Assembly: GCF_003003995.1 (NCBI RefSeq)
Contig: NZ_PVWF01000003.1
Coordinates: 1 to 64,000 of the forward strand
Source: Pleurocapsa sp. CCALA 161
GTDB lineage: Bacteria > Cyanobacteriota > Cyanobacteriia > Cyanobacteriales > Xenococcaceae
Direction: 5' to 3'
DNA: 64,000 nucleotides
How positions within the stretch are numbered: the stretch's first letter is position 1; every line of letters starts with the position of its first letter. Positions 4,518 to 24,660 of the stretch are shown piece by piece. The translations under genes were made by a program, and so were the position numbers. The notes beneath the pieces are model-generated. The model was not told the DNA's origin. It was given only the letters and a program-made list of their open reading frames with translations, and searched no databases.

Positions 4518-5054
4518 GTGAGAGATAGAAGACGCAGTAACAACAGTCGCGATTTAACCAAAACCAACGAAAGAATTCGCTTCCCCGAGATTCGCGTTAT
4601 CGACTCTGAAGGAGAGCAGCTAGGTATAATTACGCCTAAAGAAGCTCTCGCCAGAGCGCAAGAACAAGGCTTAGATTTAGTTCTAGTCAGCGAAACCGCT
4701 AAACCCCCAGTCTGTAAAATTATGGACTATGGGAAATATAAATACGAGCAAGACAAAAAGCTTAAAGAAGCGAAGAAAAAGCAGCATAACGCTGATGTCA
4801 AGGAAGTAAAAATGCGCTACAAAATTGAAGAGCATGACTATAATGTGCGCGTCAAAAATGCTCAACGCTTCCTCAAGTCAGGAGACAAGGTTAAAGCGAC
4901 CATTAGCTTTCGCGGAAGAGAGATTCAACACTCTAGATTAGCGGAAGATTTACTGCGTCGGATGGCTAAAGATTTAGAAGAGTATGCCGAAGTACAGCAA
5001 TTCCCTAAACGAGAAGGGCGCAACATGATGATGATGTTGTCACCAAAGAAGTAG
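4518..5054 (+). CDS. infC: Translation initiation factor IF-3
   Basis: Binds the 30S subunit, checks initiator-tRNA pairing and prevents premature 50S joining. The N-domain carries [20 protein letters not shown] and [16 protein letters not shown], then a lysine-rich linker, then the C-domain with [14 protein letters not shown]. The 178-residue length is typical. The start is GTG at 4518; a purine-rich AAAGGAAAG lies about 15 bases upstream, further than ideal. Rare start codons are a known feature of infC in other bacteria. It is not followed by rpmI/rplT here. A terminator hairpin follows. Confidence 0.96.
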
Positions 5055-20378: not shown

Positions 20379-21380
20379 ATGTCATCTCCTTCTTTAGAAA
20401 ACCCTATCCGCGCCTCTGTCTTAGATTCACCCCAGCTAGATTTATCAGTAGTTGTGCCGATTTATAACGAAGCCGAAAGTATCGAAGCTTTAGTACAGGC
20501 GATCGCTAATGCTGTAGCCACAACCAATTTGCATTACGAAATCATCTGTGTTGATGACGGTTCAAAAGATGGTTCGACCGATGTCTTGACCGAACTTGCT
20601 CAAAGAAGAACAGATCTCAAAGCAGTAATCCTACGACGTAACTATGGGCAAACTCCAGCAATGGCAGCAGGATTTGAATTGGCTACAGGAAAAGTAATCG
20701 TGACTTTAGATGGCGACTTGCAAAACGATCCTGCGGATATTCCGCTGCTGTTGGGCAAACTGGAAGAAGGCTACGATCTAGTGAGTGGGTGGCGGATCAA
20801 AAGACAGGATGCAGCCTTGACTAGACTATTGCCCTCAAAAATTGCCAATATCATGATCGCCAAGGTGACAGGGGTAAAACTACACGACTATGGTTGTTCC
20901 CTCAAGGCCTACCGCGCTGAACTAATTGCCGACATGAACCTCTATGGTGAATTGCACCGTTTTTTACCAGCTTTAGCCTATATCGAAGGTGCGCGCATTG
21001 GCGAAGTACCAGTACGTCACCATGCCAGACGATTTGGTCAAAGTAAATATGGCTTAGGTAGAACGATTCGAGTCGTGATGGACTTATTAACTGTCTACTT
21101 CATGAAGAAATTTCTGACTCGTCCGATGCATGTTTTTGGTTTAGGTGGGGTGATTGCTTTATTAACGGGGATAGCCATGGGAACATATCTCACGATTGTC
21201 AAACTATTCTTCAATCAAAATATCGGCGATCGCCCTTTACTGATTTTGGCAGTTTTACTGATCATTACGGGAGTCAATTTATTTTGCTTTGGTTTAGTAA
21301 CCGAACTTTTAATGCGTACCTACCATGAATCCCAAAGAAGACCAATTTATCGGATCAGAGATATTGTGGGTAAAAAGTAG
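20379..21380 (+). CDS. GT2 family glycosyltransferase (polyprenyl-phosphate sugar transferase type)
   Basis: 333 residues. The N-terminal GT-A domain has VVPIYNEAESI, CVDDGSKDGSTD and the metal-binding VTLDGDLQNDP, with later QSKYGLGRTIRVVMDLL. Two C-terminal helices (about residues 253-275 and 288-313) anchor it in the membrane. This arrangement matches dolichol-phosphate-mannose-synthase/GtrB-like enzymes that load a sugar on undecaprenyl phosphate for surface glycans. Stand-alone gene with HIP1-rich codons typical of the host. Confidence 0.88.
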   Translation: MSSPSLENPIRASVLDSPQLDLSVVVPIYNEAESIEALVQAIANAVATTNLHYEIICVDDGSKDGSTDVLTELAQRRTDLKAVILRRNYGQTPAMAAGFELATGKVIVTLDGDLQNDPADIPLLLGKLEEGYDLVSGWRIKRQDAALTRLLPSKIANIMIAKVTGVKLHDYGCSLKAYRAELIADMNLYGELHRFLPALAYIEGARIGEVPVRHHARRFGQSKYGLGRTIRVVMDLLTVYFMKKFLTRPMHVFGLGGVIALLTGIAMGTYLTIVKLFFNQNIGDRPLLILAVLLIITGVNLFCFGLVTELLMRTYHESQRRPIYRIRDIVGKK

Positions 21381-21691
21381 ACTTGGTTTGGTATTAAAGA
21401 TCGCATTTTTGAGAGAACAAAGTGCATTTGGAGAGATCGAGGTTAAGATGGTACGACCCAAACATAAAGTATGATATCTAGAATAATTCTGGATAACTTC
21501 CCATACAGGGGAATTAGCTGAGAGCTTACTTGTCAGTGTTTAGAGTTTAGGTGGAATAAAATTGGTGGTGAAGTTTCCAAGATTCTATTTTTCTACTTTT
21601 CTCAGGAATCAGCTTCGCCTTTAACCACAGCAAAAAATCATTTAGTTTGGGTAAAATGTTGAATATTTGATCGAGAGCAGGAGAATAGACC
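21381..21691. other. Intergenic region upstream of the reverse transcriptase
   Basis: No confident gene. A 48-codon minus-strand frame (21547-21693) opens at an ATG overlapping the presumed RT start. This spacer should carry the RT promoter. A 5' non-coding RNA is possible but no strong fold was recognised by eye. Confidence 0.35.
21679..21684 (+). promoter_or_regulatory. Shine-Dalgarno-like AGGAGA before an ATC codon
   Basis: AGGAGA sits 7 bases before ATC at 21692, the first codon after the last in-frame stop (21686-21688) bar one. Spacing is optimal for translation initiation, which points to the ATC as a non-canonical or mutated start of the RT gene. Confidence 0.45.
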
Positions 21692-23605
21692 ATCAGCGTT
21701 CCAATTGGTTTTTTTTTAACAGAGGAACATGTCAGGAAGGCTATTGAACTTCTGACTTGTCAAATTCAATCTAACTCACGCAGTCATCGCAGCTTAGATT
21801 TAGAAATTCTTAGAAGGGAGAATGCTCTTGCTATAATTGTTTTAGAGCAGTTTTACACCAATTACGTTTGCAACGACCTCTGTTTTAACTATCCGGGCTT
21901 ATTCCGTGCTATTCCTTATTCTGTTCCTAAAGGTGACGGTGGAGTACGTCAGTTTCATTTTCTTGAAATTTCCCTCTGGATACTGTATTACGCTTTGGGA
22001 TTTTATTTTCTTGATTTAACGCAAGCAATGCGAATTGAATTGAATGCGATTCAAGAACGTGCATCAATTTATACCTATTATGGCGCAAATATTCGTTTAG
22101 AAAATCCAAAGGGAAGCCAGATCAATTATCAGGAAGATTATCAAGAATTTACAAGGAATATACGCAGAGCAGTACGTCGCCAAGTGCAGAATCATAAAGT
22201 TGCTGTTTTGCACCTAGATATTCAAGATTTTTTCCGTTCGATTGATCATTCTCGTCTCATGCAAGTTTTAGCAGATCAAGCTTTGCCAGCATCACGACTT
22301 CGCCTTCGTTATGACGAGCATACGCAGTTGACAATCCGAGAAATCTTATTTTTAATAATGCGGCGTTCAGAAGGTTTGCCTATATCTCAACAGAATATTG
22401 TCTCCAATCTTTTGAGCCATCTCTTTCTTTACCCGCTTGACTGTTGTGTACGTGAGATTCAGATGGAGAGTAATACATCCCTTACTTTTCATCGCTATGT
22501 TGATGATATGTTTCTCACTGTGCAATTCCCTAATGTAGAAATTAATGAGAATATTGGAACAAAAATGCTTGATATTTCGACTCGAATTGGTGAACATTTG
22601 TCAAGTAATCTTGGATTAACCCTAAATCCGCTTAAAACCAGATTAGATATTCTTACCTCAGAGGATGAGGTTGACGAATTGATTGAACGTAGTCGTCTTG
22701 TAAGTTTCTACCGTCCTTTACCAGAGGAAGGAGGAGAGCCGCCGCAAGAAACCTTAAATCGCGCAATTTTAGTTTTAAGCACGTTGAGAGAGCAGTTTAG
22801 ACAGCGAGGATATATAGATAGAATTGCAACTAATGATGATTTAGCTCTTAAACAGTGTTTTCAAAAAGCTGTTGTTCATTACACGCGCAGCGAGCAGGCT
22901 CAACAGCAACTTGAAGCAGTTTTCCAGGATTGGCATCCTGCTCTAATGTCAAAGAGCATAAAGGTTTTAGTTTTCTTAATATCTCGTGTACCAACTGCAC
23001 TAAATACTCTCTTTGCCTATGTTTGCGAGGGTTTGAGAAACCCACAACTATCCTTAACTATTGTTCATTTAGCTGAGTATTTAATGCTTATCGAGGAATA
23101 CAACGGAGAGTTCAATAATGAAGTAAGCCATCTTCTTAAAACATCTTCTAATCCATATACTCATTTGCTTGGTCGTCTTGTAAACCCACTTTCTCCTTCC
23201 AGTAATCGCTATATCAATATAGAAGATAGCTGCCTACAGGCACACAGAAGTATTATGCAACAAGTTCGCCGTACAATTATTGCGGAAAGACGTGGAGTAC
23301 ACGGTTTAGCTTATAACCATTTATTGAATGTTTTACAAGAATGGTGCTTTTGTAATCAGCAGTCAAGTGTAACCCGAAATCATTATGATCGAAATCATGT
23401 AGTAAATTGGCTTGAGTCCATTGCAGGTCATTCTGAAATTATGTTTGTAATAACAATATTTGATCGACGAAACCGTAATACAATTTCACATCCTGGAGAT
23501 GAGAGTATTGAGATTGCTCCAGTTAATCAAACTGAATATGAAGAACATTTAGCAAAGCTGAATCATCTTTTACCCAATTTTTGGAGGCGGCTGCCTAATT
23601 GTTAG
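21692..23605 (+). CDS. Reverse transcriptase with C-terminal HEPN-type motif (AbiA-like defence RT)
   Basis: RT domain: motif A Asp in VAVLHLDIQDFFRSIDH, motif B around GLPISQQNIVSNLLSHLFLYPLD, and catalytic YVDD at 22496-22507. The C-terminal ~250 residues are helical and end with RNTISH (23474-23491), which fits the HEPN ribonuclease pattern R-N/D-x3-H. RT plus helical region plus HEPN is the known layout of the abortive-infection protein AbiA. The conventional first start in frame is TTG at 21995, but 101 upstream codons are clearly coding (LFRAIPYSVPKGDGGVRQFHF belongs to the RT fingers). They contain no ATG, GTG or TTG. ATC at 21692, behind a good Shine-Dalgarno, would give 637 residues, about AbiA size. 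Solitary gene, no maturase/intron features or Cas1. Likely transferred anti-phage gene. Confidence 0.85.
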   Translation: MSVPIGFFLTEEHVRKAIELLTCQIQSNSRSHRSLDLEILRRENALAIIVLEQFYTNYVCNDLCFNYPGLFRAIPYSVPKGDGGVRQFHFLEISLWILYYALGFYFLDLTQAMRIELNAIQERASIYTYYGANIRLENPKGSQINYQEDYQEFTRNIRRAVRRQVQNHKVAVLHLDIQDFFRSIDHSRLMQVLADQALPASRLRLRYDEHTQLTIREILFLIMRRSEGLPISQQNIVSNLLSHLFLYPLDCCVREIQMESNTSLTFHRYVDDMFLTVQFPNVEINENIGTKMLDISTRIGEHLSSNLGLTLNPLKTRLDILTSEDEVDELIERSRLVSFYRPLPEEGGEPPQETLNRAILVLSTLREQFRQRGYIDRIATNDDLALKQCFQKAVVHYTRSEQAQQQLEAVFQDWHPALMSKSIKVLVFLISRVPTALNTLFAYVCEGLRNPQLSLTIVHLAEYLMLIEEYNGEFNNEVSHLLKTSSNPYTHLLGRLVNPLSPSSNRYINIEDSCLQAHRSIMQQVRRTIIAERRGVHGLAYNHLLNVLQEWCFCNQQSSVTRNHYDRNHVVNWLESIAGHSEIMFVITIFDRRNRNTISHPGDESIEIAPVNQTEYEEHLAKLNHLLPNFWRRLPNC

Positions 23606-23664
23606 GTGAAGCATCATAACAACGGTACAAAAGTAAAGATAACGTTTCCATATAAACATCAACC

Positions 23665-24660
23665 ATGAAAGCATTTGTCATTGAACATTTTGGCGCACCA
23701 GATAGTTTCCATCTGACAGATTTACCCAAGCCTGAATTATTACCTAATCATGTGCTGATAAAAGTTGCAGCAACTAGTGTTAACCCAGTAGACACTAAAA
23801 TACGTCGGGGTTTGATACCGAATATTACTCCAGATTTTCCTGCCGTTTTGCATGGGGATGTAGCGGGAGTCGTTGAAGCAGTAGGAAGTAAAGTCAATGC
23901 TTTTAAAGTAGGCGATGAAGTATATGGCTGTGCGGGTGGTGTCAAAGGAACAGGCGGTGCTTTAGCAGAATATATGCTGGCGGATAGCAATTTAATTGCT
24001 CATAAGCCCAAATCTTTAACCATGACGCAAGCAGCAGCACTACCTTTAGTATCAATTACCGCTTGGGAAGGATTAATCGATCGCGCCCAAGTACAATCTG
24101 GTCAAAAAGTTTTAGTTTATGGCGGTACTGGAGGAGTCGGTCATCTGGGAATACAGTTAGCAAAATGGGCTGGCGCAGAAGTGTATGCTACCGTTTCTAG
24201 TGAGAAAAAAGCGGCGATCGCTCTTACCCTAGGCGCAGATGTCGCCATTAACTATACTGATACTACTACAGAGGAATTTGTCGCCCAATATACTGATGGT
24301 CAGGGCTTCGATCTTGTTTTCGACACCGTGGGTAACGATAATCTACAAAATGCTTTCCAAGCAATAAAGCTAAATGGCACAGTGATATCGACAGTTTCGA
24401 CCTCCCAACAAGATTTGAGCCTGATGCACGCTAAAGGACTAACTTTACATTTGGTTTATATGCTTCTACCAATGTTGTCGGGCATTAACCGTGCCTATCA
24501 CGGCAAGATTCTAGTCAAACTAGCTGAGTTAGTTGATCGAGGACAAATACGTCCGCTTTTAGACGATCAAACTTTTACCTTTTCTGAAGTTGCTGCTGCT
24601 CATGCTCATCTAGAATCAGGACAGGCGATCGGCAAAATTGTTTTGAATCAATCTTTTTGA
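23665..24660 (+). CDS. Quinone oxidoreductase-like medium-chain dehydrogenase (NADPH-dependent)
   Basis: 331-residue zeta-crystallin/QOR-type MDR protein. An N-terminal GroES-like domain contains HGDVAGVVEAVGS and GDEVYGCAGG. The Rossmann motif is VLVYGGTGGVGHLGIQLAKWAGAEVYAT, and the C-terminus has GQAIGKIVL. Structural and catalytic zinc cysteines are absent, as expected for the QOR branch. Likely reduces quinones or enones. It starts 59 bases after the RT stop on the same strand and converges with a Uma2 gene. The good family match and HIP1 sites suggest a resident gene. Confidence 0.88.
   Translation: MKAFVIEHFGAPDSFHLTDLPKPELLPNHVLIKVAATSVNPVDTKIRRGLIPNITPDFPAVLHGDVAGVVEAVGSKVNAFKVGDEVYGCAGGVKGTGGALAEYMLADSNLIAHKPKSLTMTQAAALPLVSITAWEGLIDRAQVQSGQKVLVYGGTGGVGHLGIQLAKWAGAEVYATVSSEKKAAIALTLGADVAINYTDTTTEEFVAQYTDGQGFDLVFDTVGNDNLQNAFQAIKLNGTVISTVSTSQQDLSLMHAKGLTLHLVYMLLPMLSGINRAYHGKILVKLAELVDRGQIRPLLDDQTFTFSEVAAAHAHLESGQAIGKIVLNQSF

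Follow-up and report, generated by a model that had tools for sequence, protein, structure and literature searches.

We examined a 64,000-nucleotide stretch of DNA from the cyanobacterium Pleurocapsa sp. CCALA 161 (hereafter the window, meaning the whole stretch at its full length), in which a frame of 637 codons without internal stops at 21692-23605 very likely encodes a solitary AbiA-type protein, with an RT core, a region predicted to be helical and a C-terminal HEPN domain. The original prediction had already extended this frame back to 21692, which we confirm, and carried no remark on its start codon. On the 5' side lies what we take to be a glycosyltransferase-like gene (20379-21380) and on the 3' side what is presumably an oxidoreductase-like gene (23665-24660). 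The features of the coding sequence are as follows.

21692..23605, forward strand: AbiA-type gene, 637 residues from ATC to stop (open frame, AbiA profile, fold)
22217..22219, forward strand: catalytic Asp176 of RT motif A, invariant in 14 of 14 rows
22496..22507, forward strand: RT motif YVDD with Asp271 and Asp272, both invariant in 14 of 14 rows
22709..22711, forward strand: Tyr340, situated behind the RT domain and a candidate for priming, nearly invariant (His in L019)
23192..23602, forward strand: HEPN domain as modelled, residues 501-637 (separate structure model and fold searches)
23468..23491, forward strand: HEPN motif R593-N-x-N-x-x-S-H600 (R-x6-H) from the alignment of relatives, with R593 at 23468-23470 and H600 at 23489-23491

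The protein and its domains

Among PADLOC profiles, the best match is AbiA (PDLC03741; E 8.5e-42, residues 44-630), followed by two more AbiA models; the best non-AbiA model is Drt8 (E 6.5e-16), which leaves about 26 orders of magnitude in E between the AbiA and Drt8 profiles. The same AbiA model is matched by all 14 aligned relatives, including all nine sister rows scanned. The NCBIfam AbiA model TIGR04499 matches with E 1.9e-35 and 122.7 bits, below its curated cut-off of 250, and the window protein is thus a distant AbiA that lies outside this strict model. Pfam RVT_1 scores 29.5 against a cut-off of 29.6, and a SAVED match (E 0.015, below its cut-off) was taken as chance.

When a weak model of the whole protein (mean pLDDT 51) was searched with Foldseek, four chains of Lactococcus AbiA (8OZ7) ranked first, with E values of 2.1e-6 to 1.1e-5 and TM scores by query of 0.21-0.24, and Abi-P2 came next. 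Helices are predicted for the region between RT and HEPN, and 8OZ7 is aligned across 627 columns, at this mean pLDDT and a TM score of 0.24. The structure found by fold was missed by sequence and profile searches of the PDB: the single protein retrieved only a retron RT (E 0.23), a sister protein only an RT (E 0.12), and a 14-row profile returned 11 sequences at E ≤1 (DRT1, retron and intron RTs and a designed peptide), with 8OZ7 absent. AbiK and Abi-P2 were set apart from the window protein by profiles and fold, and the tree described below holds AbiA rows only. With the PADLOC match, its recurrence in every aligned relative and 8OZ7 as the nearest solved structure, the earlier proposal of an AbiA-like RT-HEPN protein is borne out; its role would be in anti-phage defence.

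The intact RT core that had been predicted is present, as motif A Asp176 and YVDD are both in place and D176, D271 and D272 are invariant in the 14 aligned relatives. Tyr340 may be the equivalent of Tyr298/Tyr303, given as the priming tyrosines of Lactococcus AbiA in the portion of the study used here (PMC11077055). At the C terminus, five models of residues 501-637 were obtained, of which the best has a pLDDT of 72.5 and the other four 45-53. A fold search with the HEPN model placed AbiA 8OZ7 first (Z 9.3, a value that helical bundles can reach by chance with this tool; rmsd 4.0, 119 aligned), and most chains ranked after it are HEPN. In Foldseek alone, the HEPN model gave no rows at E 0.001, and nine of the ten best rows were labelled HEPN or AbiA.

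The HEPN-type fold that had been proposed for the C terminus is therefore supported, and the motif assigned to it needs to be moved. That motif was RNTISH (23474-23491), whose arginine, R595, is not conserved: 7 of the 14 rows keep Arg, while Ser stands there in 5, Cys in one and His in one. The block that is invariant across the 14 relatives consists of F590, D591, R592, R593, N594, N596, S599, H600 and P601 and, as R593 and H600 are both part of it, the HEPN pair is R593-x6-H600. Its spacing equals that of RNSNPVSH in Lactococcus AbiA, as given in the part of the published account consulted (PMC11077055).

Lactococcus AbiA is thus like the window protein in its RT core, in a HEPN domain with R-x6-H and as the nearest solved fold, whereas identity in the structural alignment is about 13% and the window gene stays below the TIGR04499 cut-off. 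The comparison with Lactococcus AbiA covers features of the protein; the window gene probably has a non-canonical start codon. The portion of that study cited here reports that no RNase activity was seen for the HEPN domain, that without the HEPN domain both dimerisation and polymerase activity were lost, and that AbiA with R-x6-H mutated retained defence (PMC11077055). Because the Lactococcus domain showed no RNase activity in that account and its R-x6-H mutants still defend, we do not favour reading the HEPN domain as an RNase toxin.

Relatives and genomic setting

Protein searches covered overlapping sets of 386, 388, 388, 50 and 27 genomes. Close relatives (61-86% identity) were found in eight genomes including the window's own (G000, G014, G133, G388, G435, G474, G546 and G558), where loci L002, L003, L004 and L005 belong to G558, G546, G133 and G388, respectively. 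In a 17-row tree, a branch supported at 100/100 has all eight close loci on its one side. This tree omits L030 (its picked frame has 108 residues), L042 and L043, as well as the other AbiA copy in G474 and duplicate loci from the same genome.

A sister AbiA branch, also cyanobacterial, comprises eleven near-full-length members (L013, L014, L024-L031 and L042) at 23-28% local identity. It has the same architecture and the invariant FDRRN-x-N-x-x-SHP block, whereas identity over the alignment is 21-25%. AbiA is not new to cyanobacteria, and the expectation that a cyanobacterial member would broaden the family does not hold given these eleven proteins. One genome, G474, holds both branches (L019 and contig C89:17920-19812). 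No relatives of the window protein were found in viral contigs, plasmids or phages. Weak matches to the AbiA model in 41 of 45 genomes (E 7.3e-9 or weaker) look like cross-matches to the RT core and were not counted as AbiA.

Within the genus, 11 of 12 other genomes have no close relative of the gene. The AbiA copy of G558 and its glycosyltransferase match lie on different contigs, and in G466 the interval behind the glycosyltransferase gene holds other genes between flanks that are 91% identical; these (L092:3520-5934) are presumably two HxlR-like regulators and a second quinone-reductase-like gene. This interval is a variable spot in the genus, and a clean empty site was not found. As neighbours differ among the relatives examined, we regard the AbiA gene as a solitary accessory. 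Two relatives are adjoined by what we take to be DNA cytosine methyltransferase-like and HNH-nuclease-like genes (L021:3479-4624 and L062:7300-7749), hinting at defence islands.

The start of the reading frame

The frame opens on ATC, and the features around it are these.

21692..21694, forward strand: inferred start codon ATC, aligned with ATT/ATC in 8 of 8 clade loci (selection downstream)
21679..21683, forward strand: Shine-Dalgarno AGGAG, spaced 8 bases from the ATC; found at a spacing of 5-9 bases in 7 of 8 loci
21686..21688, forward strand: in-frame TAG stop, two codons 5' of the ATC, ruling out an earlier start in frame
21995..21997, forward strand: first in-frame ATG/GTG/TTG, a TTG at codon 102, unlikely to be where translation begins
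21652..21657, forward strand: tentative -10-like TAAAAT, to which six relatives align TAAACT or TACACT (box in 7 of 8 loci)

From the TAG at 21686-21688 to the TTG at 21995, the window frame contains no ATG, GTG or TTG, and L003 also has an in-frame TAG two codons upstream, so that an earlier start is excluded in both. The aligned first codon is ATC in the window and L002 and ATT in L011, L003, L004, L005, L021 and L019; its A and T are invariant across the eight loci and its third base is T or C. Here the shared protein sequence begins, as I-S-V-P-(I/L)-G, and no protein sequence upstream is common to the clade. About 225-239 bases of upstream DNA are common to L004, L005 and L011, with 96.6% identity between L011 and L005 over 236 bases.

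AGGAG stands 8 bases before this codon in five loci. The spacing is 9 in L002 (8 from AGGAGG) and 5 in L021, which carries two adjacent ATT codons and has the motif 8 bases before the second; L019 is the sole locus without AGGAG. Whereas the window clade thus combines ATT/ATC with AGGAG in seven of eight loci, the sister branch has ATG at the N terminus in all members examined except L029 (GTG or TTG), and AGGAG occurs within 25 bases before the assumed ATG in none of nine sister genes (a count from which L029 and L042 are left out). As background, AGGAG lies at most 15 bases from 83 of 5,039 internal ATT/ATC codons, exactly 8 away in 5 of them; among 274 frames that reach 200 codons, it is near an early ATG in 20.

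Between its upstream stop and its first canonical start codon the gene counts 102 codons, which ranks first among the window's 30 frames that reach 300 codons; the next has 28. The G014 relative, with 85 codons, ranks first of 159 in 400 kb of G014 (next 57), of which one stretch was picked because it holds this relative. Over codons 2-101, dN/dS against the window copy is 0.10 for L011, 0.09 for L004, 0.10 for L003, 0.10 for L019 and 0.14 for L021, compared with 0.06-0.13 for the remaining gene in the five computable comparisons, all of them rough values as dS is 1.0-2.6 and near saturation; against L002, synonymous change is saturated and pN/pS is 0.22. Codons 2-101 thus look to be under purifying selection (dN/dS of about 0.1), and, as judged from selection, translation covers the stretch ahead of codon 102. 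Nine residues before codon 102 are invariant: F8, L20, F71, P79, K80, G84, R86, Y99 and Y100.

Taken as a start, the ATC of the window gene is likely, and initiation at ATT/ATC throughout the clade is a little less so. A nearby TTG exists in four of the eight loci, at 13 codons before the position in L004, three codons past it in L019 and eight past it in L002 and L021, and these four could use it as the start instead. The window, L011, L005 and L003 offer no comparable alternative, with no TTG inside 25 codons. Apart from this, the window has a run of nine T at 21709-21717 (codons 6-9) that is not found as such in the seven aligned relatives, a possible slippage site.

RNA folding of six of the eight leaders gave none clearly better than shuffles (z -0.18 to 0.91), and the pairing of the Shine-Dalgarno sequence with downstream U-rich codons in four of the six minimum-energy folds is unsupported. 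The -10-like box would imply a leader of about 30 bases, and a promoter scan found nothing. In a literature search of titles and abstract openings, no non-canonical start in an Abi gene appeared among the matches listed.

Initiation, dose and competing readings

We assign a probability of roughly three in four to an AbiA polymerase that is throttled at initiation through its AUC/AUU start. By homology with its Lactococcus counterpart, the polymerase would make untemplated DNA primed on its own tyrosine; the rest of the protein would consist of a helical region and, at the C terminus, the HEPN domain through which it would dimerise. The AUC (AUU in most relatives) would serve as initiation codon, presented to the ribosome by the strong Shine-Dalgarno sequence. 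IF3 disfavours such codons, which would make a low, buffered dose of the polymerase their most likely purpose; on our reading, this start would keep a costly polymerase at a limited dose, and we give about even odds that IF3 is what throttles it.

The comparison is with genes that may work alike. Repression of non-canonical starts by IF3 is described for infC, the IF3 gene, with ATT in E. coli and ATC in Streptomyces, in the portion of the source used here (PMC5472188). According to the same portion, Streptomyces sigR has a GTC start and an extensive AGGAGGTG site, was shown to be repressed by IF3 and is overproduced with a canonical codon (PMC5472188). To infC the window gene is likened by its non-canonical start codon, and to sigR, as far as this partial account goes, by a non-canonical start together with an extensive Shine-Dalgarno sequence; both encode proteins unrelated to AbiA, and repression by IF3, tested in those genes, is carried over to the window gene as a supposition. 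In cyanobacteria, ATT and ATA starts are reported from Nostoc 7120 proteomics, in the part of that study consulted (PMC8557916).

The gene for IF3 lies in the same window (infC, 4551-5051). Its best match has GTG at the conserved N terminus in eight of ten genomes; of the other two, L057 has ATC there and L058 has CTA and then ATC. The codon read is that at the conserved N terminus and may differ from the true infC start. With GTG in eight of ten, these genomes do not establish AUU-type autocontrol of IF3 for the lineage.

Against dose control through the start codon stands, as a possible though somewhat unlikely reading, a tolerated quirk of no regulatory meaning, in which the strong Shine-Dalgarno sequence rescues an ancestral start mutation. 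The eight ATT/ATC loci form a single clade, so that the codon may trace to one event, a strong Shine-Dalgarno sequence could compensate for it, and we found no evidence of regulation. However, ATG is one substitution away from ATT or ATC and synonymous sites are near saturation, yet none of the eight loci has ATG, even as the third base of the start position varies between T and C.

Throttled initiation could also take a stronger form, which we consider improbable: the AUU/AUC start would act as a sensor of translation initiation, with IF3 keeping the AbiA of this clade nearly off until phage take-over of the ribosome or lower initiation fidelity released a burst of polymerase. If true, the start codon itself would act as the trigger of a defence gene.

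Initiation at a downstream canonical codon, which in the window would be the TTG at 21995 and give a protein of 536 residues, is more doubtful still. This TTG is the first in-frame ATG/GTG/TTG and would be called by a gene finder limited to those codons, and the TTG codons of L002, L021, L019 and L004 noted above make a canonical start possible there. The first downstream canonical codons nevertheless fall at unlike offsets (101 in the window, 77 in L011 and L005, 25 in L003, 20 in L004, and 8 in L002 and L021), and a start at 21995 would lose all nine invariant residues from F8 to Y100, in a stretch that looks purifying.

Decay into a pseudogene after loss of the start codon is very improbable, even with three of the eight loci broken: L003 is truncated and has lost the last third of the gene (L003:6323-6400), L004 is interrupted (L004:6086-6238), its match ending after codon 362, about 150 bases short of the contig end, and L005 is frameshifted near codon 327, where an assembly error is possible. 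Past codon 362, L004 enters an apparent transposase gene that we take to be IS630-like. In contrast, the window copy, L011, L002, L019 and L021 remain open to the end, dN/dS is about 0.1 on either side of codon 101, and AT(T/C) and AGGAG are kept in 8 of 8 and 7 of 8 loci, respectively, across 61-86% protein identity.

Membership in another RT class (retron, group II intron or other DRT) is scarcely credible, since, although numerous RT models match more weakly, AbiA leads by a wide margin, retron and group II intron models score far below it, among the 25 rows listed only an AbiA model passes residue 348, an Rfam search of 21350-23680 at E up to 1 matched none of the described families, and shared upstream DNA is limited to L004, L005 and L011, so that no clade-wide ncRNA is evident.

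What seems new here is that one AbiA branch would initiate at AUC/AUU behind a strong Shine-Dalgarno sequence; AbiA as a kind of protein is known. A non-AUG start conserved in this branch suggests that the dose is controlled where translation begins. A gene finder that accepts only ATG, GTG and TTG would cut 101 conserved residues from the window gene, and defence surveys may record such genes as truncated.
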